Positions 3,584-62,740 of a DNA stretch of 64,000 nt are shown here, piece by piece. The translations under genes were made by a program, and so were the position numbers. Under the pieces are notes generated by a model. It did no database searches, had not been told where the DNA came from, and saw only the letters and a program-made list of their open reading frames with translations. Source of the stretch: a bacterium (GTDB taxonomy: Bacteria > Bacteroidota > Ignavibacteria > SZUA-365); NCBI GenBank assembly GCA_020444325.1, contig JAHLLD010000001.1:124001-188000 (forward strand), written 5' to 3'. The first letter of the stretch is position 1; the number at the start of each line of letters is the position of its first letter.

Positions 3584-3699
3584 ATCGTCCCCACGCTCTG
3601 CGTGGGGACGGATATCCCGAACGCTCTGCGTTCATTCAATCCGTGAAATCGCCGCAGAGCGGCGCATAAAGACGTCCCCACGCAGAGCGTGGGGACGAT
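3584..3699. repeat. 116-bp element with paired CGTCCCCACGC hairpins, copy 1
   Basis: A perfect hairpin at 3586-3610 (CGTCCCCACGC / GCGTGGGGACG around a CTCTGC-like centre) and its counterpart at 3673-3697 form terminal inverted repeats ATCGTCCCC...GGGGACGAT. The interior has GAACGCTCTGCGTTC and CGCCGCAGAGCGGCG palindromes. It is intergenic, between the dehydrogenase and epimerase genes. Other copies lie at 6811-6925, 14436-14551 and 41260-41375. Confidence 0.9.
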
Positions 3700-6767: not shown

Positions 6768-6925
6768 CGTCCCCACGCAGAGCGTGGGGACGATGAACCC
6801 CAGCTTACCCATCTTCCCCACGCTCCGCATGGGGACGGAAATCCCGAACGCTCTGCGTTCATTGAATCCGTCGAATCGCCGCAGAGCGGCGCATGAAGAC
6901 GTCCCCACGCAGAGCGTGGGGACGA
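6768..6925. repeat. CGTCCCCACGC element, copy 2 plus a solo hairpin
   Basis: A single hairpin CGTCCCCACGC...GCGTGGGGACG lies at 6768-6792. A full 115-bp element at 6811-6925 follows. Its left arm is degenerate (TTCCCCACGCTCCGCATGGGGACG) and its right arm is intact. The interior palindromes are the same as in copy 1. The gap between the Wza-like and Wzz-like genes (6708-6955) holds nothing else recognisable. Confidence 0.88.
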
Positions 6926-6955: not shown

Positions 6956-8152
6956 ATGAGCGAAAACACTGAGAATGTAACTGAGAACAGGCCGTTTGTG
7001 CGGTCGGTGTTTGTGCTGTTGCGGCACTGGCGCTTCCTGGCGCTGAGTTTTGTGGTGGCCGCGGTAGTGGCGGTGGTGTTCGCGCTGATGATGCCTAACT
7101 GGTTCAAATCCACCGCAACCTTCCTTCCGCCCGCGGGCGGGAGTGGATTGCTGGATAAGGTGTCCGGCGGACTCTCTACCACCCTGCGCACGTTCGGGAT
7201 ATCCGGCATCGGCGGAGAAAGCGGCGGGTACAGCTACCTGTCCATTCTCGAAAGCCGGCGCATGGGCGAACGCATCGTCAACGAGTTCGACCTGATCAAG
7301 GTCTACGACATCGGCGACGGCTCGATGGAAAAGGCGCTGGGCAATCTCGAAGACAATACGAACTTCGAATTCGATGAAGATGGACGCGTGGTGATTTCGG
7401 TGTGGGACACCGATCCGAAACGCGCGGCCGAAATGGCCAACACGTACTTTACGAATCTCAATGATATCAGCACGGAACTCAACAGCGCCGAGGCGCGTGG
7501 CAACCGCGAGTTCGTCGAACTGCAGTACACCACCGTGCGCGACAGTCTGCACCGGCTTGAAGAACGCATGGCCGCGTTTCAGCGAAGGACGAAAATCCTC
7601 TCCCTCGAAGAGCAAACCAAGGCCACGATCAAGGCCGCCGGGGAAATGTACGCGCAGCTCGAATCGTACCGCGTGATGCTCGGTGTGCTCGAACGCAACC
7701 TGGGGAAGGACGATGCAGAAGTGCGTTCGCTGCGCATCGCCATCAGCGAAATGGAGAAGCGCGTGCCCGGACTCGGAGACAACGAGCTCACCGGGATGCT
7801 GGGTGACAACGTGGGTGACATTTCCGAAGAAGGCATCACCTACCTGCGCCTGTACCGTGACATTGAAATCCTCAGCAAGCTGCAGGCGTTTCTTCTGCCG
7901 ATGTATCAGCAGTCCCTCATCGACGAACAGAAAAAAATGCATGTGCTCGTGCCGCTGGATGTCGCCGTTCCCGCCGAGCGCAAAAGCCGTCCCCGCCGAT
8001 CCATCATCGTGCTCGCGGCCGGACTCTCGGTGCTGTTTCTCGCCGCCGCTTTTCTCCTCATTCGCGAGCGCCTGCGTTATTACAGCGCGCAGCACGCGGA
8101 TGAATGGTCCAGCGTCCGTCGCAGCATAGGATTCAAACGCAGCAAGGAATGA
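6956..8152 (+). CDS. Chain-length determinant family protein (Wzz/PCP)
   Basis: It is an inner-membrane polysaccharide co-polymerase that controls modal chain length and works with the export protein. It has 398 residues. A transmembrane helix lies near residues 27-47 (FLALSFVVAAVVAVVFALMM), then the Wzz-type segment NWFKSTATFLPP. A long periplasmic helical region with coiled-coil character (about 160-260) follows, and a second membrane helix lies near 345-365 (IIVLAAGLSVLFLAAAFLL). No Walker kinase domain is present, so it is a PCP without a BY-kinase part. The TGA stop (8150-8152) overlaps the next gene's ATG, so translation is probably coupled. Confidence 0.88.
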   Translation: MSENTENVTENRPFVRSVFVLLRHWRFLALSFVVAAVVAVVFALMMPNWFKSTATFLPPAGGSGLLDKVSGGLSTTLRTFGISGIGGESGGYSYLSILESRRMGERIVNEFDLIKVYDIGDGSMEKALGNLEDNTNFEFDEDGRVVISVWDTDPKRAAEMANTYFTNLNDISTELNSAEARGNREFVELQYTTVRDSLHRLEERMAAFQRRTKILSLEEQTKATIKAAGEMYAQLESYRVMLGVLERNLGKDDAEVRSLRIAISEMEKRVPGLGDNELTGMLGDNVGDISEEGITYLRLYRDIEILSKLQAFLLPMYQQSLIDEQKKMHVLVPLDVAVPAERKSRPRRSIIVLAAGLSVLFLAAAFLLIRERLRYYSAQHADEWSSVRRSIGFKRSKE

Positions 8153-9630
8153 CCCGCTTCCTGCAATACATGCATGCCGACACGGCATTTGAAACCGACA
8201 CGCCTGTTTCCTGGAAAGAGGCTGTCGGTTTCCTTCTTGGCGTCGTCGCCTTCATGGTCGTTGCTTTCCTCATGCATCTCGAATTTTTCGCCGCCATCGC
8301 CGTCGTGGGCGTCATCGGCGGCGTGCTGGTGCTGCAGAGTCCCATGACCTGGATGACGCTCTCCATCCTCGGCTTCCTCGGCGTGTTCTGGGCGCCCGAG
8401 GCCGGGATGACCCCGATCGAGCTCCTGCATTCCATGCTGATATTCGGCGGGATGCTGTGGTGGACCTTCCACCGCCTCGTCATCGCGAAAAAGCCTATAG
8501 AGTGGACCGTGGGCGGACTGCTTTTCTTCGCGCTGTTCCTCCAAATGGTGCTGATGGTGCCACTCTCCCTCGGCTATGACGCGGACGGCTATATCCTGCT
8601 GCGCGAGCTGGCCATCCTTTCCACCATCCTGCTCTTCATTCCCATTGCACATGAAGCCGACACCTTCTTCAAGCAGAAAGTGCTGTTCGGCGCCATGGTT
8701 GTCGTCCTCTCCCTGCTTGCGGTGCGGAATATCTACACGTACAAGACGCGCGTGATCGAAGCCGTGTACGCCTGGCAGGTCGGCGCCAGCCGTTCCGCCG
8801 AAACCTTTTTCCTCATCTTCATCGCCACCGTCATTGGTGCGGCGCTGCTGATTTCCGCCTGGCGCTTCCGCAGCTGGATATTCTGGGCCGCGTTTTTCGT
8901 CCTCGGTGCCGCCGCGACCATCCTCTCCTTCTACCGCACGCTGTGGGTGGCATTCTTCGTGAGCGTCGCCACGATGGGCGTGGTGCTCGGCGCGCAGTAC
9001 TGGAAGCGCGGGCTGGCCTATTTCGCCGTGAGCATTGTACTGCTCGGGGCCATGTACCCGGTGTTTCTCGAGGACGTTATTCCCTTCGACGTCATGTGGC
9101 GCTCGATATCCGCCCGCTTTGAATCCATCGGCGAGTACGGGCAGGATGTCTCCGTACGCAACCGCGACGCCGAAGCCTGGGCCAGCATTGACGACATCGA
9201 CGGGAACTGGTTTCTGGGGAAAGGACTCTCCACTCCCGTCCAGCATTACAAGCTCACCACCGAAAGCACCATTTTCACGACGTGGACGCACAACGGCTAC
9301 GCCTGGATACTCAACCATTACGGCATACTCGGCACGCTGCTGCTGTTCTCATCGTACTTCGCGTACATCTTTCTCGGACTGCGCATGGAGCGGCAGCTGC
9401 GACGGCTGCCCGACATTCCCCCGCACATCCGCTTCCGATGGCGCACGGCCATTGCCTGCGGTATCGCCATCATCGTGGCGAATTTCTTTGTGTCCATCAC
9501 CGTGAATCAGTTCCTGAGTCATGAGGGGGGGTTGGTGTTCGCCATGGTGTATGGGTTGTTTGAGGCGTGGAGGAGGAAGATAAACGACCTCGAGAAAGCG
9601 AAAATCACAGCTTCTGAGGCGAACGCGTGA
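8149..9630 (+). CDS. Wzy polymerase / O-antigen ligase-like membrane protein
   Basis: The protein has 493 residues and about 10-12 predicted membrane helices. A large loop near residues 310-385 contains RNRDAEAWASIDD, FLGKGLSTP and TWTHNGYAWILNHYG; the His-Asn plus GxG pattern is typical of the Wzy/WaaL periplasmic loop. By family and context it probably polymerises repeat units. An ORF start at 8104 is possible, but I chose the ATG at 8149 because it overlaps the Wzz stop (ATGA) and is preceded by AAGGA. Its last codon and stop lie in a GCGTGA hexamer that begins a hairpin array. Substrate specificity cannot be read from the sequence. Confidence 0.8.
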   Translation: MTRFLQYMHADTAFETDTPVSWKEAVGFLLGVVAFMVVAFLMHLEFFAAIAVVGVIGGVLVLQSPMTWMTLSILGFLGVFWAPEAGMTPIELLHSMLIFGGMLWWTFHRLVIAKKPIEWTVGGLLFFALFLQMVLMVPLSLGYDADGYILLRELAILSTILLFIPIAHEADTFFKQKVLFGAMVVVLSLLAVRNIYTYKTRVIEAVYAWQVGASRSAETFFLIFIATVIGAALLISAWRFRSWIFWAAFFVLGAAATILSFYRTLWVAFFVSVATMGVVLGAQYWKRGLAYFAVSIVLLGAMYPVFLEDVIPFDVMWRSISARFESIGEYGQDVSVRNRDAEAWASIDDIDGNWFLGKGLSTPVQHYKLTTESTIFTTWTHNGYAWILNHYGILGTLLLFSSYFAYIFLGLRMERQLRRLPDIPPHIRFRWRTAIACGIAIIVANFFVSITVNQFLSHEGGLVFAMVYGLFEAWRRKINDLEKAKITASEANA

Positions 9631-9705
9631 GTCCCGATAAATCGGGACGCTGGAGCTCCGCTGACGCGGAGCGCGGGAGCGCCTCTGACGAGGCGCGCGT
9701 GAAGA
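9625..9705. repeat. Hairpin-hexamer array at the wzy/wzx junction
   Basis: GCGTGA (9625-9630) is followed by the hairpin GTCCCGAT-AA-ATCGGGAC, then GCTGGA, then GCTCCGC-TGAC-GCGGAGC, GCGGGA, GCGCCTC-TGAC-GAGGCGC and GCGTGA. The first hexamer contains both the TGA of the upstream gene and a GTG start for the downstream one. The array is translated as the first 25 residues or so of the Wzx-like protein if that GTG is used. Confidence 0.85.
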
Positions 9706-11174
9706 CGGAAGGGGCGGGGGTGCTGTCGCATGGGATTATTTCGATGCTGGCGTATGGGGTGAATTTCGGGGCGAGTTTTTTTGCTGTGATCGGGATAATG
9801 CGGTTGATGGACAAGGGGTCGTACGGACTCTTTTCCCTCGCGATTACGATAGTCGCGAGTACGTCGATGATTGCGGATTTCGGGATTAGTCCCGTCATCA
9901 TGCGCCGGCTCGCCATCAATCCCGGCCGGTCGGGGAGCATTTTGCTCGAGGCGACGTCGCTGCGCTTTCTGCTGCTGCTGCCGACATGGATTGTCACCGT
10001 GGCGGTGGGCTGGTGGCAGGAGCCGACATGGGATTTCATGTGGCTGCTCAACATCATGCTGCTCAATGCCGTGGTGAGTTCAAAAGTGCCCGTCATCCGC
10101 GGCACGCTCGAAGCGTTCTACCGGTCGCAGTCCCGCATGGGACTCCCCACCCTGACCATGGCCATCGACAGCCTCGTACTGCTTACCTCCGTGCTGCTCT
10201 TCCCCCTGCTCTTCACTGCACCCTACACCGCCATGCTGCTGTACACGGCCAGCAATCTCCTGGGCGCCGTGCTGCTGACCGTGTTGAGCGTTCGTTTTGC
10301 GCGCAAGCTCAACACCGAGCCCGTGCGGATTACGCGGGCGGGCATGCGCGATCTGCTGGTCGCCAGCGCTCCCCTCGCCGTGTACCTGCTGCTGCATGCC
10401 GTGCATCTCGGTGCGGATGCCGTTCTGCTCAAGCGTTTCCACGGCGCCGTGCAGGTCAGTGATTTTACCGCCGCGATGCGGATCATGAGTCCCCTCGCCG
10501 TCTTCCCCACCATCATCGCCATTTCCGTCGCGCCATATTTCGCCCGCGCCAGCGTGGCGGAGGATGAAGAGCAGCGGCAGCGCATGTCCCGTCTCTTCTC
10601 CCTCAGCGTCAAGACGCTGCTGGTGGGCGCCGTGCTGCTGGCGGGACTCGGCATCACCAATGCCGGCGTGATCATTGATCTGCTGGTAAAAGGGAAATTC
10701 GCCGATTCCATCATCCCGATGAGCATACTGTTCATCGCCTTCGTCCCGATGTCCCTCAACATGTTCCTCGTCGAAATCAACAATGCCCGGGGACACCTCA
10801 GCCTCAACACCCGCTTCGCCGGCATCCTCGCCGTGTTCACCGTTGCGGCCGGACTGCTGCTGATCGGCCCCTATTCCGCCACCGGCGCGGCCGTGGGACG
10901 ACTCATCGCCATCATCGCCGGCATGATTTACCTCCTCCTCCGCTCCCGCACCGGCATCACCGTCGCCATGAAACCCGTCATCTGGAAATCCGCCCTCCTG
11001 GGGTTTGTTCTCGTCGCGTCCAACGAGTTGCTGTCTTCTCTCCACTGGGTGGTCGCCAACAGCCTGTCCGTTGGTATCGTCGCAGTGCTCTTCATTGTGC
11101 TACGCGTGTACTCACCTGCCGAGATTGAGCAATGGCGCATGCAAATCTCGTCGCTGTTGCGACGAGATGCTTGA
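9627..11174 (+). CDS. Oligosaccharide flippase (Wzx, MATE/MOP superfamily)
   Basis: It is an inner-membrane protein expected to flip undecaprenyl-linked repeat units. It has 515 residues from the GTG at 9627 and about 14 hydrophobic segments. The first starts at HGIISMLAYGVNFGASFFAVIG, with the typical MRLMDKGSYGLFSLAITIV and a C-terminal polysaccharide-biosynthesis region. The first 25 residues or so (including SPDKSGR) derive from hairpin repeats. GTG at 9699, just after the array, is an alternative start that would give a conventional N-terminus. The ORF overlaps the preceding gene by 4 bases (GTGA). It forms the Wzx/Wzy/Wzz set with its neighbours. Confidence 0.88.
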   Translation: MSPDKSGRWSSADAERGSASDEARVKTEGAGVLSHGIISMLAYGVNFGASFFAVIGIMRLMDKGSYGLFSLAITIVASTSMIADFGISPVIMRRLAINPGRSGSILLEATSLRFLLLLPTWIVTVAVGWWQEPTWDFMWLLNIMLLNAVVSSKVPVIRGTLEAFYRSQSRMGLPTLTMAIDSLVLLTSVLLFPLLFTAPYTAMLLYTASNLLGAVLLTVLSVRFARKLNTEPVRITRAGMRDLLVASAPLAVYLLLHAVHLGADAVLLKRFHGAVQVSDFTAAMRIMSPLAVFPTIIAISVAPYFARASVAEDEEQRQRMSRLFSLSVKTLLVGAVLLAGLGITNAGVIIDLLVKGKFADSIIPMSILFIAFVPMSLNMFLVEINNARGHLSLNTRFAGILAVFTVAAGLLLIGPYSATGAAVGRLIAIIAGMIYLLLRSRTGITVAMKPVIWKSALLGFVLVASNELLSSLHWVVANSLSVGIVAVLFIVLRVYSPAEIEQWRMQISSLLRRDA

Positions 11175-11405
11175 GCGGCGCTACGCGCCGCGCGGGGGCA
11201 CCGCTACGCGGTGCGCGTGAGTTCCGCTGCGCGGAACGCGTGAGCGACACTTCGTGTCGCGTTTTTTCGCGCCGTCTCCGTCCGCCGAAGCTTGAGCGAA
11301 GCTTGAGCGAAGCTTGAGCGAAGGAGGAAGGCACTCAAGCGTGCCGCAAGGCACTCAAGCGTGCCGCAAGGCACTCAAGCGCGGAGCGAAGCGACGCTCT
11401 CGCGC
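11172..11405. repeat. Intergenic hairpin-hexamer array
   Basis: Clean modules occur in order: GCGGCGC-TAC-GCGCCGC, GCGGGG, GCACCGC-TAC-GCGGTGC, GCGTGA, GTTCCGC-TGC-GCGGAAC, GCGTGA, GCGACAC-TTC-GTGTCGC. After these come three tandem 11-bp units GCTTGAGCGAA (about 11288-11320) and 2.5 tandem 20-bp units containing GGCACTCAAGCGTGCC. The array fills most of the 284 bases between the flippase and the fusion gene. No ORF or promoter can be supported here. Confidence 0.85.
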
Positions 11406-14435: not shown

Positions 14436-14551
14436 ATCGTCCCCACGCTCCGCGTGGGGACGGGGATCCCGAACGCTCTGCGTTCATTCGATCACACAAA
14501 TCGCCGCAGAGCGGCGCTTCAAGACGTCCCCACGCAGAGCGTGGGGACGAT
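14436..14551. repeat. CGTCCCCACGC element, copy 3
   Basis: A left hairpin at 14438-14462 and a right hairpin at 14525-14549 form ATCGTCCCC/GGGGACGAT termini. The interior again holds GAACGCTCTGCGTTC and CGCCGCAGAGCGGCG. It occupies most of the 178-base gap between the GT-C-like gene and the next GT2 gene. Confidence 0.9.
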
Positions 14552-15497: not shown

Positions 15498-16832
15498 ATG
15501 CCGTCCCCCCTCAACATCCTTCAAATCGCACCGCGTTTGCCCTGGCCTCCGACCGACGGCGGCGCCATCGGCATTTACAACATCACGCGTTTCCTGGCGA
15601 AGAGGGGACACCGCATCACCATGCTCACCTTTGCCGATGCGGATGCTGATCGCGGGGATCTCGAAGAATTCTGTGACGTGCTCACCGTGGAGAAGGACCT
15701 GCGGAATCGTCCCCTCCCCGCCCTGCTGAATCTCTTTTCCCCGCAGCCCTACACCATGACGAAGTATCAGAGCGCGGAGATGATGTCCCTCATGCGCACC
15801 GAGTTGCGCGAGCGGAAATTCGATGTCCTTCACATCGACCACATCCACATGATGCCTTATGGACGCCGGGCGAAGGAGGAATTCGGTATCCCCGTCCTTC
15901 TCCGCGAACACAACTTTGAAACCACCATCCACCGCCGTTTCGCCGCGCAGGTGCGCTGGCCCATCGCCTCCCACTGGCTCCGCTCCCAGGCCGAACGCCT
16001 CTTCCGCTTCGAATCGCTCATGCTCCGCCACCCCGACATCATCGCCGCGATAACTCCTCAGGACGCAGCGGAGGTGCAGGCTGTGTTGCCAGACGATCAT
16101 CATGATCGCGTGAAAGTTATCCCTGCCGGCGTGGACACGGAGCGCGTGAGTCCCGATAAATCGGGACGCGGGGGTTCCCCCGCGGAGCGGGGGAACGCGG
16201 GAGTCCCCGCTGGCGCGGGGACGCAGGAGACCCCGACTCCATCGGGGTCGCGGGAAGACGCTCCGCTGACGCGGAGCGAAGAGGGGCATGTAGTGTTATT
16301 AGGTCCGTTGAACTGGTCACCCAACAGGGATGCGGCGGAGTGGTTTGTGGAGGAGATATGGCCGTTGCTCGTGGAGGAAGTGCCGGAGGTGCGTTGTACG
16401 ATTGCGGGCTCACATCCCCCGAAAAATATGCAGAAAGTGCATATTCCCGGAGTGACGGTTGCGGGCTTCGTTGAAGATCTCGATGCGCTGCTGGATTCCG
16501 CCGATGTCATGGCGGTGCCACTTCGCGTCGGAGGCGGCATGCGCATCAAGCTGCTTGAATTTTTCGCGCGCGGCAAGGCCGTGGTTTCCACGCGCATCGG
16601 TGCGGAAGGAAATGCCGCCGTGCACCGCGAACATATCCTGCTCGCGGACACCGCGCAGGAATTCGCTTCCGCCATCGCAGAACTGCTCCGCAATCCGGAG
16701 CTCACCCGCAGCATCGCCCGCAACGCCCGCCAGCTCTCCATCCGGCGCTACGCCTGGCCGCATGTGGCGGAGATGTTCGAGTTGGCATACTTGGAGGTTG
16801 TCGCCCCTTCGGGGCGTTCTTTCGTCCCGTAA
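15498..16832 (+). CDS. Family 4 glycosyltransferase carrying an in-frame hairpin-repeat insertion
   Basis: It is a GT-B glycosyltransferase of 444 residues. The N-terminal domain starts LNILQIAPRLPWPPTDGGAIG and has HIDHIHMMPYG and LLREHNFET. The inter-domain region VIPAGVDTERV is followed by about 47 residues encoded by five perfect DNA hairpins (16141-16282). Domain 2 resumes at HVVLLGPLNWSPNRDAAEWF, with VPLRVGGGMRIKLLEFFARG and the E-x7-type nucleotide-sugar site. The insertion falls in the loop between the two Rossmann domains, so folding could tolerate it. The last codons (PSGRSFVP) also lie in hairpin DNA, and the stop TAA is inside a hairpin loop (CGTCCCGTAATACGGGACG). The start is the ATG at 15498. 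Confidence 0.88.
   Translation: MPSPLNILQIAPRLPWPPTDGGAIGIYNITRFLAKRGHRITMLTFADADADRGDLEEFCDVLTVEKDLRNRPLPALLNLFSPQPYTMTKYQSAEMMSLMRTELRERKFDVLHIDHIHMMPYGRRAKEEFGIPVLLREHNFETTIHRRFAAQVRWPIASHWLRSQAERLFRFESLMLRHPDIIAAITPQDAAEVQAVLPDDHHDRVKVIPAGVDTERVSPDKSGRGGSPAERGNAGVPAGAGTQETPTPSGSREDAPLTRSEEGHVVLLGPLNWSPNRDAAEWFVEEIWPLLVEEVPEVRCTIAGSHPPKNMQKVHIPGVTVAGFVEDLDALLDSADVMAVPLRVGGGMRIKLLEFFARGKAVVSTRIGAEGNAAVHREHILLADTAQEFASAIAELLRNPELTRSIARNARQLSIRRYAWPHVAEMFELAYLEVVAPSGRSFVP
16141..16282. repeat. Five-hairpin mosaic array inside the GT4 coding sequence
   Basis: Hairpins lie at 16150-16167 (8-bp stem, AA loop), 16174-16196 (10-bp stem, GGA), 16203-16222 (8-bp, TGGC), 16229-16249 (8-bp, CTCCA) and 16259-16278 (8-bp, TGAC). 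All are perfectly paired and have different stem sequences. The linkers are GCGTGA (before), GCGGGG, GCGGGA, GCAGGA and GCGGGAAGA. The first hairpin is identical to one at 9631-9648. There is no stop codon in the GT4 frame. Confidence 0.92.
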
Positions 16833-16955
16833 TACGGGACGAGGCATTTTCCCGCTCCGCGGGAAGTATTTTGCTTCGCAGTCTGTATCTACGAACCGCG
16901 AAGCGAACAACGCGCCGCAGGCGCAAAAACTCCCCGCACAGCGGGGAAAAAACTG
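16805..16955. repeat. Hairpin array, second linker class (AAAAACT type)
   Basis: Modules include CGCCCC-TTC-GGGGCG, CGTCCCGTAATACGGGACG, TTCCCGC-TCC-GCGGGAA, and CTCCCCGC-ACA-GCGGGGA. A composite GCTTCGC...GCGAAGC module with an imperfect TCTGTATCTACGA centre lies at 16873-16904; it is closely matched at 38342-38373. The linkers are T- or A-rich (TTCTTT, AAAAA). The array overlaps the end of the GT4 ORF and ends at the ribosome-binding site of the next gene. Confidence 0.8.
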
Positions 16956-19008: not shown

Positions 19009-19410
19009 AGCGGCGTAGGTTGTCTCTGTTGCAGTCAGTTCAATTTTTCAATATAGCGGAAATTGCGGGGATTTGGAAAACGGCTTTGCCGCGCGGGAGT
19101 GCCTGCGGCACGCGGGAGCGCCTGACGGCGCGCGGGAGCCTCGTCCCGCTTCGCGTGGACTCGGCGCGGGAGTGCTTCGCACGCTTAAGCGCCGCTTTCG
19201 CGGCGCGCTCTTCACGCGCTCCGCGCAGCGGAGCTCTGGCGTCCCGACTTGTCGGGACTCACGCGTGACCCCGCGAAGCGGGGAAACTCAAGCGCGCCGA
19301 GCGCAGCGAAGGCGCTGACGCAGTCGGCAGACATCAGAGAAGGTGGCGTAGCGTACATTTTTCGTTAAATATGCATAATTTGAGGAATTACGCACGAACC
19401 ACGACGTCCT
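19009..19410. repeat. 402-base divergent intergenic region with hairpin-hexamer array
   Basis: Positions 19075-19325 are filled with modules: GTGCC-TGC-GGCAC, GCGCC-TGAC-GGCGC, GTGC-TTC-GCAC, GCGCCGC-TTTC-GCGGCGC, GCTCCGC-GCA-GCGGAGC and GTCCCGAC-TT-GTCGGGAC. They are joined by GCGGGA, GCTTAA and TCACGC. The orientation of the linker flips after about 19210. 19345-19400 is AT-rich (TTTTTCGTTAAATATGCATAATTTG) and is the likely promoter region for the rightward sugar transferase gene. No ORF can be supported. Confidence 0.8.
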
Positions 19411-20805: not shown

Positions 20806-22679
20806 GGTGTTCGCTCGGACTTCGTCCTCGCTCACGCGGCTGTTCCGTCACGCTTCGCGTTCCGGAACGCGGGAGTCTCGCTACGCTCGACGCGGGAGTG
20901 CTTCGCACGCTTGAGCTCCGCTGCGCGGAGCGCTCTTCACGCGCGCCGAAGGCGGACACGCGTTCCGACGCCGAAGGCGGAGGAACTCACGCGGCTCCCC
21001 GCATTGCGGGGAGGCTCACGCACCTTCTGATTCTGGCGTTGCTCGCACTTGCGGTCATGCTGCCGCAGACCGCGAGGGCTCAGGCCGAACACGTCGACAT
21101 CACGCATCCCGTGTATCATTTTCTGCAGAGGATGGAGCTGAGGGGAGCGATTGAGGGGTATTCGCGGGCGATGCTGCCGCTGGAGCGGAAACAGGTGACG
21201 GCGTTTGTGCGGGAACTGCAGGGGAGTACGGTGCGAATGAGCGGGGCGGAGCGAGCGCTGCTCGCACGCTTTGTGGATGAGTTCGTGGCCGAGGATGACG
21301 GGACGCAGGATGCGTACGTGCTGTTTGAAACGTCCCCCGGTGACGTTGTTCCGGACTTTTTCGATGACCGGGAGAAATTCCTCTACCGCTGGCGCTGCGA
21401 GGATGGGACTTCCCGCTTTTTCGCGGAATTCCTGGGTTCACTCGAATACCGCACGCTGCACGGGGACGATCAGGCTTCCAATGTCACACTCGGGACGATT
21501 GGTGGACGTTTCCGCGGCACGATGGGCGGCACAGTGGGCTTCAGCCTGATGGCGACCAACGGCACGGCGGCGGGAAATCGCTCGCTTGCGCTGAACGACG
21601 CTTCGCTCAAGCGGAATTTCAATTTTGCGGACCTGGACAAGGATTTCTTCGACTTCGCGGAGGCCTATATCACGGCGAGTTGGGACTGGGGGGCTGTTTC
21701 CCTCGGACGCGAAAAGCGTCTCGTCGGCAATGGCATATCCAACCAGCTGCTGCTTTCCACCAACGCCCAGCCTTTCGACGCGCTGCAGTTTACCGCGCAT
21801 GCGGGCAACCTGCGCTTTCTCTTCCTCCACGGCTTTCTGCTTTCCGAGAAGCAGCTGATCGAGGGCGGCTCGCGTCCTTTCTTCGACAGCAAGTACGTGG
21901 CCATGCATCGCGTGGAAGCCGACATCGCCTCGGCCGTGCGCCTTGGCGTCTTCGAAGCCGTCGTGTATTCGCAGCGCGAAGTGGATCCCGCGTATCTGAA
22001 TCCCATCAATTTTTACAAGTCCGCCGAACACGCGGGCGGGGATCGCGACAATCCCATGCTGGGTTTCGACCTCGCCACGCTGTTCATTCCCGGATCGCAG
22101 CTTTACGGCAGCTGGCTGATCGACGATATCGACTTCACCCTCTGGGGCAGTGAATGGTGGGGAAACAAGTTCATCTGGCAGGGCGGCGTACTCAATTCCT
22201 CCCTCCTCCCCAACACCGATATCGGTGTGGAATACACGCGTATCGAGCCTTACGTGTACACACATCGCCTGGCGGGAAATCAGTACACGCACAATGGCGA
22301 CGCACTCGGACTCGAACTCGCGCCAAACAGCGACGAGTGGTATCTGTCATTGCGGCACTGGCTGAGCGCGGAGCTCTGGCTGCAGCTTGAGCTGCATCGC
22401 CGGCGTCATGGACGCAATGAGGTCGACGCCGACGGCGCGATACTCGTCAATCACGGCGGTGACATTTACGAATCGCTGGATTACGCCCGCGACTCACAGA
22501 CCGCGCCTTTCCTCGACGGTCCCCTCGACCAGTCGACCATCCTATCCCTCACCCTCCGCTACGAACCCGTCCGCAACCTCATCCTCCGCAGCACCCTCCG
22601 CTACCGGGACATCACCTCCGAGCTGGATGGAGATAAAAGTGATGTTTATGGGGCGTTGTTGCTGGCAGTGGAGTTGTAG
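20802..22679 (+). CDS. Wzi-like capsule assembly outer-membrane protein with repeat-encoded N-terminal extension
   Basis: The 625-residue protein is predicted to be an outer-membrane beta-barrel that retains or assembles surface polysaccharide. The ATG at 20802 overlaps the previous stop and follows GGGGCAGG, so it is a strong start. Yet the signal peptide (THLLILALLALAVMLPQTARAQ) begins only near residue 72; residues 2-71 are encoded by hairpin DNA. The mature region begins VDITHPVYHFLQRMELRGAI, typical of this family, and the rest is rich in alternating aromatic/beta segments (FSLMATNGTAAG, WGAVSLGREKRLVGNG, EWYLSLRHWLSAEL). It is the last gene of the locus. Family assignment is by pattern and context. 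Confidence 0.8.
   Translation: MRCSLGLRPRSRGCSVTLRVPERGSLATLDAGVLRTLELRCAERSSRAPKADTRSDAEGGGTHAAPRIAGRLTHLLILALLALAVMLPQTARAQAEHVDITHPVYHFLQRMELRGAIEGYSRAMLPLERKQVTAFVRELQGSTVRMSGAERALLARFVDEFVAEDDGTQDAYVLFETSPGDVVPDFFDDREKFLYRWRCEDGTSRFFAEFLGSLEYRTLHGDDQASNVTLGTIGGRFRGTMGGTVGFSLMATNGTAAGNRSLALNDASLKRNFNFADLDKDFFDFAEAYITASWDWGAVSLGREKRLVGNGISNQLLLSTNAQPFDALQFTAHAGNLRFLFLHGFLLSEKQLIEGGSRPFFDSKYVAMHRVEADIASAVRLGVFEAVVYSQREVDPAYLNPINFYKSAEHAGGDRDNPMLGFDLATLFIPGSQLYGSWLIDDIDFTLWGSEWWGNKFIWQGGVLNSSLLPNTDIGVEYTRIEPYVYTHRLAGNQYTHNGDALGLELAPNSDEWYLSLRHWLSAELWLQLELHRRRHGRNEVDADGAILVNHGGDIYESLDYARDSQTAPFLDGPLDQSTILSLTLRYEPVRNLILRSTLRYRDITSELDGDKSDVYGALLLAVEL
20806..21020. repeat. Hairpin mosaic between start codon and signal peptide of the Wzi-like gene
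   Basis: Modules include GTTCCG/CGGAAC, GTGC-TTC-GCAC, GCTCCGC-TGC-GCGGAGC and TCCCCGC-ATT-GCGGGGA. Linkers are GCGGGA, GCTTGA and TCACGC. About 210 bases stay open in the frame set by the ATG at 20802, which sits in the hexamer GCATGA. Confidence 0.85.
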
Positions 22680-25594: not shown

Positions 25595-25700
25595 GCGGAA
25601 CGTCGTCATGCGACAGTCCCCGATTGCATCGGGGACGCAGGAGTCCCGCCCCGCAGAATGGGGCGGACGCGAGAGTCCCTCCGGGACGCAGGACCTCAAG
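25595..25700. repeat. Hairpin-hexamer array downstream of the T9SS gene
   Basis: Modules are TTCC-TGC-GGAA, GTCCCCGAT-TGC-ATCGGGGAC, GCAGGA, GTCCCGCCCC...GGGGCGGAC, GCGAGA, GTCCC-TCC-GGGAC and GCAGGA. They lie in the 390-base gap 25582-25971. The rest of the gap holds a terminator (25702-25732), one GTTTCACAACCGGTGGTTGTGAAAC palindrome (about 25768-25792, shown here only as its outer arms GTTTCACAACC and GGTTGTGAAAC) and AT-rich upstream DNA with no ORF. Confidence 0.8.
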
Positions 25701-25701
25701 C

Positions 25702-25732
25702 AAAACCCCGGCGCTTCAGCGTCGGGGTTTTT
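25702..25732 (+). terminator. Rho-independent terminator
   Basis: AAAACCCCGGCGC, loop TTCA, then GCGTCGGGGTTTTT. The stem is about 8-12 bp with a terminal T run. It ends transcription of the T9SS-sorted propeller gene. The A run on the 5' side means it may also work on the other strand. Confidence 0.85.
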
Positions 25733-25971
25733 CATGCGCGGCATCGCCAACGGCGTTGCCGCTCCCGCGTTTCACAACCGGTGGTTGTGAAACTCAATGT
25801 AACCTTTCCCGCCCCTTCTCTGTCATTCCCCCGCATCTGACTGCAGCCCCCATTGAAAATTTGTATGTGCCCTTAAACCCCAGATGCGATCAGTGTGTCC
25901 TACTCCCAGACGTCTCAAGGGCACAACGCTAATTCACTTCGACAACAACTTTATTTTCGATAGGTACAGTT

Positions 25972-28175: not shown

Positions 28176-28259
28176 ATTCCCCTGGGAATAAAACTCTCAG
28201 GCAGGCGCGTGTGCAGGAACGCACATAGCTAATTACGCTCCTGTAATATACAATAATTG

Positions 28260-28451
28260 GCGTTTCCTCGCTAACGCTCGGAGGCGTTTCCTCGCTGACG
28301 CTCGGAGGCGTTTCCTCGCTGACGCTCGGAGGTGTTTCCTCGCTGACGCTCGGAGGTGTTTCCTCGCTGACGCTCGAAGGTGTTTCCTCGCTGACGCTCG
28401 GAGGCGTTTCCTCGCTGACGCTCGGAGGCGTTTCCTCGCTGACGCTCGGAA
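28260..28451. repeat. 24-bp tandem hairpin repeat, 8 copies
   Basis: The unit is (GCG or GTG) plus TTTCCTCGCTGACGCTCGG plus AG, repeated eight times with few substitutions (TAAC for TGAC in unit 1, CGAA in unit 5). Each unit can pair CCTC with GAGG and GC with GC around a TGAC loop. The array fills the 308-base gap between OsmC and rho (28176-28483). It lies upstream of rho in the direction of transcription. Three related units lie on the other side of the OsmC gene. Confidence 0.95.
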
Positions 28452-29422: not shown

Positions 29423-29564
29423 CTCCGCTCTCCCTTTAGAATTGAACTGAAAACAGAACTTATAGCTGATTGCCAAAGCAAGAAAGTCAGCTAGTTGTCC
29501 CGGATAAATTACTCCTCCGCGCAGCGGAGGAAAGTCCGCGCGAGCCGAAGACGAGCGCAAATCC

Positions 29565-29696
29565 TGGCCCGCAAGGGCCAAACACCTGGCCCGTAAGGGC
29601 CAAACACCTGGCCCGCAAGGGCCAAACACCTGACCCGCAAGGGCCAAACACCTGGCCCGTAAGGGCCAAACACCTGGCCCGTAAGGGCCAAACACC
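29565..29696. repeat. 22-bp tandem hairpin array with GNRA-type loops, 6 copies
   Basis: Six hairpins TGGCCC-GCAA-GGGCCA or TGGCCC-GTAA-GGGCCA (one TGACCC variant, unit 4) are separated by AACACC, with a strict 22-bp period. As RNA, GCAA and GUAA are GNRA tetraloops. A different hairpin, GTCCCAC-GAA-GTGGGAC, follows at 29701-29717. Upstream, 29423-29564 holds only short hairpins (CTCCGC-GCA-GCGGAG) and AT-rich DNA. Confidence 0.95.
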
Positions 29697-41259: not shown

Positions 41260-41375
41260 ATCGTCCCCACGCTCCGCGTGGGGACGTCTGTTTTACGCCG
41301 CTCTGCGGCGATGCACTGGGAAAATGAACGCAGAGCGTTCGGCTTATGCGTCCCCACGCAGAGCGTGGGGACGAT
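41260..41375. repeat. CGTCCCCACGC element, copy 4, interior inverted
   Basis: The outer hairpins lie at 41262-41286 and 41349-41373 with ATCGTCCCC/GGGGACGAT ends. The interior palindromes (GCCGCTCTGCGGCG then GAACGCAGAGCGTTC) are in the opposite order to copies 1-3, so the element is inverted. It lies between the TlpA-like and SGNH genes. 41376-41529 is otherwise AT-rich upstream DNA. Confidence 0.9.
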
Positions 41376-54147: not shown

Positions 54148-54512
54148 CGCATGCGCTTGTGATACATTGACGCAAGATCGGTGCTTGAGAGTTGCTTCGC
54201 AACTCGCTTGAGACTCCGCGTTCCGCGGAGTCGCATGAGTTCCGCTTCCACCTACGCTTTCGCTTTGCTCAAGCTTCGGCGGACGGAGACGCGGAACGCA
54301 GGAGTGACACTTCGTGTCACGCGTGAGTCCCCCGATTTCATCGGGGGACGAACTCAAGCGCGCCGATAGGCGCTCCAGCGTGAGTCCCCAGATGGAATCG
54401 GGGACGAACTCCCGCGTGCCGGTAGGCGCTCCAGCGCGGCGCAGCCGCTATTCGCTATTCACACCTGAAGGTCGTATTTTCCTGTACTTTACATTGCCTG
54501 AGTAAGTGATAT
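54148..54512. repeat. 365-base divergent gap with hairpin-hexamer array (54178-54450)
   Basis: Modules are GAGTTGC-TTC-GCAACTC, GCTTGA, GACTCCGC...GCGGAGTC, GCATGA, a long GTTCCGC...GCGGAAC enclosing other words, GCAGGA, GTGACAC-TTC-GTGTCAC, GCGTGA, GTCCCCCGAT-TTC-ATCGGGGGAC and GCGCC-GATA-GGCGC. The hexamer GCNKGA is clearest here. The promoters of both divergent genes must be at the edges; 54455-54512 is AT-rich before the ATG at 54513. There is no ORF. Confidence 0.88.
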
Positions 54513-62104: not shown

Positions 62105-62521
62105 ATGCTCGAAACCCTCGCCACATGGCATCACTTCCTCGTGCACTTCGCCGTGGCCTTCGCCATCGGCAGTGTCGCCTTCGACGTCCTCGATTTCTTC
62201 CTGAACAAGGAGAAATTCGAGCAAACCGGCTTTCACCTGATGATCGCCGCGATCCCCTTCCTCCTTCTCGCGGTGCTCACCGGCAACCTGGCCGAGACCT
62301 ATCTGACCGGACTCGCTTCGCACGCAGCGGATCTCGAAAAGCACAAAACCTACGCAAACATCGCCGTCTGGGTATTTTCCGCCGCCGGTCTCTGGCGCCT
62401 CTTCCTCCATTTCCGCCGCGAATACAACGGCATCCGCAAAGTCATCTACATTTTCATCATTACCACCGCGGCCATGAGCGTCTACCTCGCCGGCCTGCAC
62501 GGGGGTATGTTGCGCCACTAG
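62105..62521 (+). CDS. DUF2231-like four-helix membrane protein
   Basis: The 138-residue protein begins MLETLATWHHFLVHFAVAFAIG, with a His in the first helix as in DUF2231. FLLLAVLTGNLAETYLTG and KHKTYANIAVWVFSAAGLWRLFLHF follow, and VIYIFIITTAAMSVYLAGLHGG is the last helix. The conserved His residues may hold haem. Function is unknown. It starts two bases after the YraN-type stop, so it is probably in the same operon. The TAG stop at 62519-62521 is directly followed by hairpin arrays. Confidence 0.8.
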   Translation: MLETLATWHHFLVHFAVAFAIGSVAFDVLDFFLNKEKFEQTGFHLMIAAIPFLLLAVLTGNLAETYLTGLASHAADLEKHKTYANIAVWVFSAAGLWRLFLHFRREYNGIRKVIYIFIITTAAMSVYLAGLHGGMLRH

Positions 62522-62740
62522 AGCTCCCGCTCCGCGGTCGCGCGTGAGCGGCTTCGCCGCGCTTGAGCGCCGCTGCGCGGCGCGCAGGAGTTCTCCCGAC
62601 TTCGTCGGCGGAACGCTGGAGATCCCGCTTCGCGGGATCGCGTGAGCGTAGCGAACTCAAGCGTGAGCGTAGCGAACTCAAGCGTGAGCCCCGCCTCGGC
62701 GGGGCGAACTCCCGCGCGGCGAGTCCCAGAGGGACGAGCC
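62522..62740. repeat. Hairpin-hexamer array
   Basis: Modules are GCTCCCGC...GCG, GCGTGA, GCGGC-TTC-GCCGC, GCTTGA, GCGCCGC-TGC-GCGGCGC, GCAGGA, GTTC...GAAC with GAC-TTC-GTC, GCTGGA, GATCCCGC-TTC-GCGGGATC and GCGTGA. Then come two tandem copies of GTGAGCGTAGCGAACTCAAGC and GCCCCGCC-TC-GGCGGGGC. The rest of the gap to 62815 is AT-richer upstream DNA of the next gene. Confidence 0.87.

Follow-up and report, generated by a model that had tools for sequence, protein, structure and literature searches.

Rickettsia palindromic elements (RPE) are palindromic DNA found in frame in protein genes, and they are longer, sequence-conserved repeats. A conserved sequence is what usually identifies REP elements. 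Ordinary repeat searches would miss a family whose common features are pairing, loop and spacing, and such a family would allow a natural test of the way in which structure is read by single-strand transposases.

Among REP elements, those of TnpA-REP (RAYT) group 3, such as REP-Mb of Marinomonas and REP-Sm of Stenotrophomonas, are closest to the units described here. Both are short perfect palindromes with loops of 3–4 nt and a 5' leader, their structure and loop are read more than the stem, and they are mostly intergenic (PMC8266576). REP-Mb has a 5-bp stem and a 4-nt loop and lies 2 nt from its tetranucleotide. The group 3 TnpA-REP enzymes tolerate some stem changes; a mismatched stem impairs them, and certain loop bases are required (PMC8266576). 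The REP families with GTAG and CGTC termini resemble the units in being dispersed palindromes, some of them in frame in ORFs, with termini that give stop codons. Their in-frame clusters encode 43–82 residues, and GTAG REPs supply stop codons to upstream ORFs (PMC3733652). Two further likenesses are the REPINs, which form hairpins, are probably moved by RAYT and include some tandem arrays (PMC3116915), and the mitochondrial GC clusters and double-hairpin elements, which are small mobile GC-rich palindromes (PMC4478555).

The array in the glycosyltransferase gene

The window, which is the whole analysed stretch of 64,000 nt from a bacterium of the Ignavibacteria, contains five perfect hairpins with their linkers inside the gene of a GT4 glycosyltransferase (Table 1), at the positions and with the sequences originally described. 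When the 142 nt were shuffled 3000 times under a dinucleotide-Markov model, 2885 shuffles contained no such hairpin, 113 contained one and two contained two. With its five hairpins, the array exceeds shuffled DNA in hairpin density, as does the whole window, with 36 perfect stems of at least 8 bp against 9–17 in shuffled windows, partly because several repeat families occur in the window.

The array fills the gap between the two enzyme domains, since PF13439 (residues 20–216, N domain) ends at 216 and PF13692 (264–399, C domain) starts at 264. Only one of the three forward frames through the array is open, and it is the frame of the gene. Absence of the 142 bp from homologues had been proposed as a check. 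Among 16 aligned GT4 homologues, from Ignavibacteria and other Bacteroidota MAGs, 14 have no insert here, and their VIPAGVD motif leads straight to the C domain. The GT4 protein of a congener (G002; loci L008/L114) is 62% identical, and at the same codons its gene carries a different hairpin array, also in frame, whose linkers are AAATAC and whose stems are unrelated to those of the array studied here. Another homologue (L010) has an insert slightly upstream, which looks unrelated and is not clearly of the hairpin-array kind.

In both domains, dN is ~0.27 and dS is >1.2, and selection on both is purifying. The insert does not align, and dN is ~0.9 in the aligned insert. The AlphaFold model of the protein has a mean pLDDT of 85.8, with residues 220–258 below 50, and the insert is predicted to be a disordered loop. 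Together, the dN/dS of the domains and the low pLDDT of the insert indicate that the enzyme is apparently functional and that the insert is probably a tolerated disordered loop. This is a clear case of an array that has become part of an enzyme still under purifying selection.

The stop codon TAA of the GT4 gene lies inside hairpin 16822–16842 of a second array, and the congener also has an array at the same place after its GT4 gene (L114 9064–9268). Another palindrome, AATATGCA-GAAAG-TGCATATT, is seen at 16425–16445 in the C domain. It belongs to a third family of dispersed palindromes, with the form TTATGCAG-aaa-CTGCATAA and further members in L046, L060, L087, L091 and L106, yet no clear difference in length is seen at this point of the protein alignment.

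Table 1. Positions of the GT4 gene, hairpins, linkers and arrays in the window, and of Y1 loci in relatives
Feature	Position	Strand	Remark
GT4 (GT-B fold) glycosyltransferase ORF, 444 aa	15498–16832	+	array host; Pfam, AlphaFold
First linker, GCGTGA	16144–16149	+	
Hairpin 1, GTCCCGAT-AA-ATCGGGAC, 8 bp	16150–16167	+	identical unit also at 9631–9648
Linker GCGGGG	16168–16173	+	
Hairpin 2, GTTCCCCCGC-GGA-GCGGGGGAAC, 10 bp	16174–16196	+	
Linker GCGGGA	16197–16202	+	
Hairpin 3, GTCCCCGC-TGGC-GCGGGGAC, 8 bp	16203–16222	+	
Linker GCAGGA	16223–16228	+	
Hairpin 4, GACCCCGA-CTCCA-TCGGGGTC, 8 bp	16229–16249	+	
Linker GCGGGAAGA	16250–16258	+	
Hairpin 5, CGCTCCGC-TGAC-GCGGAGCG, 8 bp	16259–16278	+	
Second array, overlapping GT4 3' end	16802–16947		linkers T-rich on left, A-rich on right; hairpins 16802–16816, 16822–16842, 16849–16865, 16912–16924, 16931–16947
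Class A array, 3 units	9625–9702	+	first linker GCGTGA supplies stop codon of ORF 8149–9630
Class A array, 5 hairpins	11145–11260	+	linker GCTTGA supplies stop codon of ORF 9627–11174
Class A array, 2 identical units GTGCCTTGCGGCAC	11335–11380	-	
Class A array, 2 units	19093–19137	+	
Class A units, both orientations	19166–19283		
Class A units	20892–20992		covariance-model match
Class A units, long stems	25616–25797		
Class B array, GGTGTT linkers	29563–29696	-	~6 copies of 22-nt unit
Class A array, both orientations	54183–54449		between divergent genes
Class A array	62542–62705	+	after ORF 62105–62521
IS200-type Y1 loci with flanking palindromes, relatives	L215 1200–2276; L205 1201–2387; L207 2046–2778; L208 1187–2190		

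Unit design, distribution and stem variation

The data support the proposed reading as a repeat system that builds arrays, in which the linkers are constant and the self-complementary cores vary. It recurs genome-wide and in relatives of the same family. The genome sample comprised 1.62 Mb in stretches, and its array densities are not unbiased because some stretches were picked for a pattern match. In the 1.62 Mb, 21 hairpins are flanked on either side by a GCNKG[AG] linker, against 0 in a shuffled copy. In a linker-only test, intervals between two linker hexamers were taken first and then scored as hairpins, which avoids preselection of hairpins. GCNKGA intervals are perfect hairpins in 64/900 cases, against 1/359, 5/218 and 1/176 for permuted control hexamers (7/753 in total). 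GG[TC][GA]TT intervals are perfect hairpins in 19/101 cases, against 0/41 and 0/11 for controls. Such linker-based tests were adopted because generic chaining of hairpins with mismatches gave mostly chance chains.

The unit consists of a 6-nt linker or leader and a perfect stem of 5–10 bp, with a loop of mostly 2–5 nt, and units are strung head to tail. In both classes A and B, the loop is usually T-N-C or T-N-N-C and is oriented with the linker. Class A units have an outer G-C pair (as required by the selection) and nearly always a C-G fifth pair, and their pairs 2–4 are of many types; 33 distinct fully paired inserts are seen. The spacer is 6 nt long in 67/99 gaps of the own genome and in 6/7, 14/18 and 4/4 gaps of three relatives (G002, G006 and G009). 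Its sequence varies between arrays and species: GCNKGA, GGTGTT, GTATTT (AAATAC), GTGGTT, GTTCTT, GGATGA, GGGGGT and GCGGGG. A reading of the GGA-containing linkers as CsrA decoys was dropped, since other dialects are without GGA. The units of the GT4 array differ from one another. Near-identical head-to-tail units are found in L045 (12 identical hairpins) and in L058, where the array is uniform except for the stem of a single unit.

Several other arrangements were observed. In L048, two three-hairpin arrays (7757–7827 and 11209–11281) lie in inverted orientation ~3.4 kb apart, on either side of a predicted large ORF (7949–11050); their stems are similar and follow in mirrored order. In G006, an array at L191 1467–1648 alternates the linker dialects GCGTGAGC and TCGGTGTT and is followed by an ACCCCC-linked array. 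In the window, 28259–28450 contains eight copies of a 24-nt unit, GGCGTTTCCTCGCTGACGCTCGGA, which looks like class B and has an internal mismatch in its consensus stem. Palindromes of the form CGTCCCCACGC-nnn-GCGTGGGGACG occur in pairs, their starts ~87–132 bp apart, at 3586–3697, 6768–6924, 14438–14549 and 41262–41373, and several of the pairs enclose small GAACGC/CGCCGC hairpins. These palindromes are a separate, sequence-conserved REPIN-like family, present also in L105, L111 and G002.

Model matches number 70 in the own genome; G002 and G006 have 5 each, G009 has 4 and G003 has 1, and these genomes all belong to one family. The covariance model, which is biased to the dialect of the own genome, has no match in the other genomes of a 61-genome set or, under stricter filters, elsewhere in a 296-genome sample of the phylum. 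The assembly undercounts arrays because several contigs end inside them (the starts of C2, C18 and C22, and the end of C9). About 35 of 37 arrays are intergenic. The other two are in predicted genes, one of them at a doubtful start codon, and the GT4 array is the only one that is clearly intragenic. Array-bearing intergenic regions are co-directional in 13 cases, divergent in 7 and convergent in 4, which is close to the background (384, 139 and 85). Three ORFs take their TGA stop from a linker: one in L054 and, in the window, those with ends at 9630 and 11174.

The covariance model was built from 23 two-unit stretches, permits G-U pairs and mismatches, and has 61 matches in the 1.62 Mb. Among 508 stem cells, which count sequences and not events, 97.2% are paired, 97 carry a change on each side, 4 hold G-U and 14 are unpaired; the pairing counts lean upward because the model expects pairing. 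A count from the cell table assigns 61 of these double changes to the transversion type. Co-varying stems with few G-U pairs fit self-complementarity at the DNA level better than slow RNA compensation via G-U. This is a clear case of hairpin arms changing together, almost without wobble intermediates.

Possible origins of the arrays

The evidence inclines us to regard the GT4 array as one array of a lineage-specific REP-like family, in which recognition would read pairing, loop and 5' leader, and not stem sequence. The plan of the unit is that of REP-Mb (a 6-nt leader, a perfect stem of at least 5 bp and a loop usually starting with T), which favours this reading. Because the units lack a GTAG or CGTC tag and a conserved stem, and flank no transposase in the own genome, they are called REP-like and not REPs.

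We infer that a Y1 (HUH) enzyme similar to those of TnpA-REP/IS200 copies the units, or formerly did so, through a hairpin of single-stranded DNA. The enzyme would check perfect pairing, the loop and the 5' leader and would ignore the stem sequence, so that any perfectly paired stem would be acceptable. The leader hexamer might consist of a guide tetranucleotide and two bases, and the different leaders might be dialects of it. Arrays could grow through tandem duplication and unit insertion. Stems could drift in sequence and yet stay perfect through template switching from arm to arm during replication, a process able to generate hairpins and to preserve them (PMC8794818). The GT4 array may have settled in a flexible inter-domain linker, in a stop-free frame, where ~45 disordered residues would be tolerated. 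The original prediction had proposed that translation of the array is either tolerated or selected for. Tolerance agrees with the data, and selection is not supported, nearly all arrays being intergenic.

Against this reading speak the missing GTAG tag and the only Y1 gene found in the own genome (C4:175149), which scores 49.7 bits against a RAYT cut-off of 80 bits and has no hairpins around it. Also against it, no array is linked to a transposase at the loci examined in genomes with this dialect, and no empty site or excision was seen within one species. In its favour, relatives within the family have IS200-type Y1 genes with multicopy palindromes on either side, whose stems differ in each genome. 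Their 5' arm is C-rich, as in the units, and their loops are mostly T-N-N-C (T-C-A-C or similar).

It can be speculated, rather tentatively, that the units represent a structure-addressed mobile repeat, whose identity lies in self-complementarity, the loop and the 6-nt length of the leader, with the stem left free. One enzyme could then spread an open-ended set of hairpins, build arrays and occasionally make new coding sequence inside genes.

Identical-unit tandem arrays of the L045 type need no transposase, and this counts against copying by such an enzyme. The units might instead be transposase-free, self-correcting palindromic tandem repeats, multiplied by slippage, in which template switching between arms keeps the pairing perfect and rewrites the stems. 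The uniform arrays of L045 and L058, the single deviant stem in the latter, and the transversion-type double changes, which a wobble intermediate cannot explain, are all consistent with this, and template switching is documented as a route to arm homogenisation (PMC8794818, PMC8604942). However, such repeats do not explain how units spread to dozens of places apart from one another in intergenic DNA, why spacers stay at 6 nt while their sequence varies, or why the loop rule is shared, and we consider this origin rather improbable.

The strong covariation of stems, and the arrays kept by relatives at the same intergenic place after GT4, could also point to a structured RNA element, acting in transcripts through mRNA stability, attenuation or protein binding, with the pairing kept by selection. 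This is unlikely in view of the 4 G-U cells among 508, the occurrence of arrays in either orientation and between divergent genes, and the linker sequences that differ between species, and no family of Rfam 15 matched the window at gathering thresholds. Least probable is selection of the GT4 array for the protein it encodes, or as a switch giving phase variation of a surface glycan enzyme, in which the frame would shift whenever a 26- or 29-nt unit is added or removed: two congeners have arrays at the same inter-domain site and the gene lies in a glycosyltransferase neighbourhood, but the insert residues are not conserved and are predicted to be disordered, nearly all other arrays are intergenic, and slippage should be rare because the units differ.

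Comparison with described palindromic repeats

The REP-like family shares in-frame palindromic insertion with RPE, and differs from them in its short units and variable stems. The mitochondrial GC clusters and double-hairpin elements differ in being organellar. REPINs are inverted pairs with highly conserved ends (PMC3116915), whereas here the stems vary and the linkers are constant.

No described family of hairpin arrays matching these was found in the open-access literature, and the variability of stems within one genome behind a fixed 6-nt linker was likewise not found described there. The original statement that no described family has such a design is nevertheless too strong, since structure-read palindromes and in-frame clusters are known for REPs (PMC8266576, PMC3733652). 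The insertion in GT4 itself has a precedent in the latter. GTAG and CGTC REPs are defined by a conserved terminal tetranucleotide and family-specific stems, and the units carry neither tag. Neither GTAG nor a close variant of it stands 5' of the hairpins, where the leaders are GCNKGA, GGTGTT, GTATTT/AAATAC and others, and a CGTC terminus is not part of the units, the CGTCCCCACGC palindromes of the window being a separate family.

Of the features of REPs, the units are short hairpin-forming palindromes, multicopy and mostly extragenic; flanking of a RAYT gene (REPtron) in the own genome and a stem conserved within the family are not seen. Compared with group 3 REPs, they have no GTAG and no linked transposase in the own genome, and they are tandem units 6 nt apart, with dozens of stems behind one leader in one genome.
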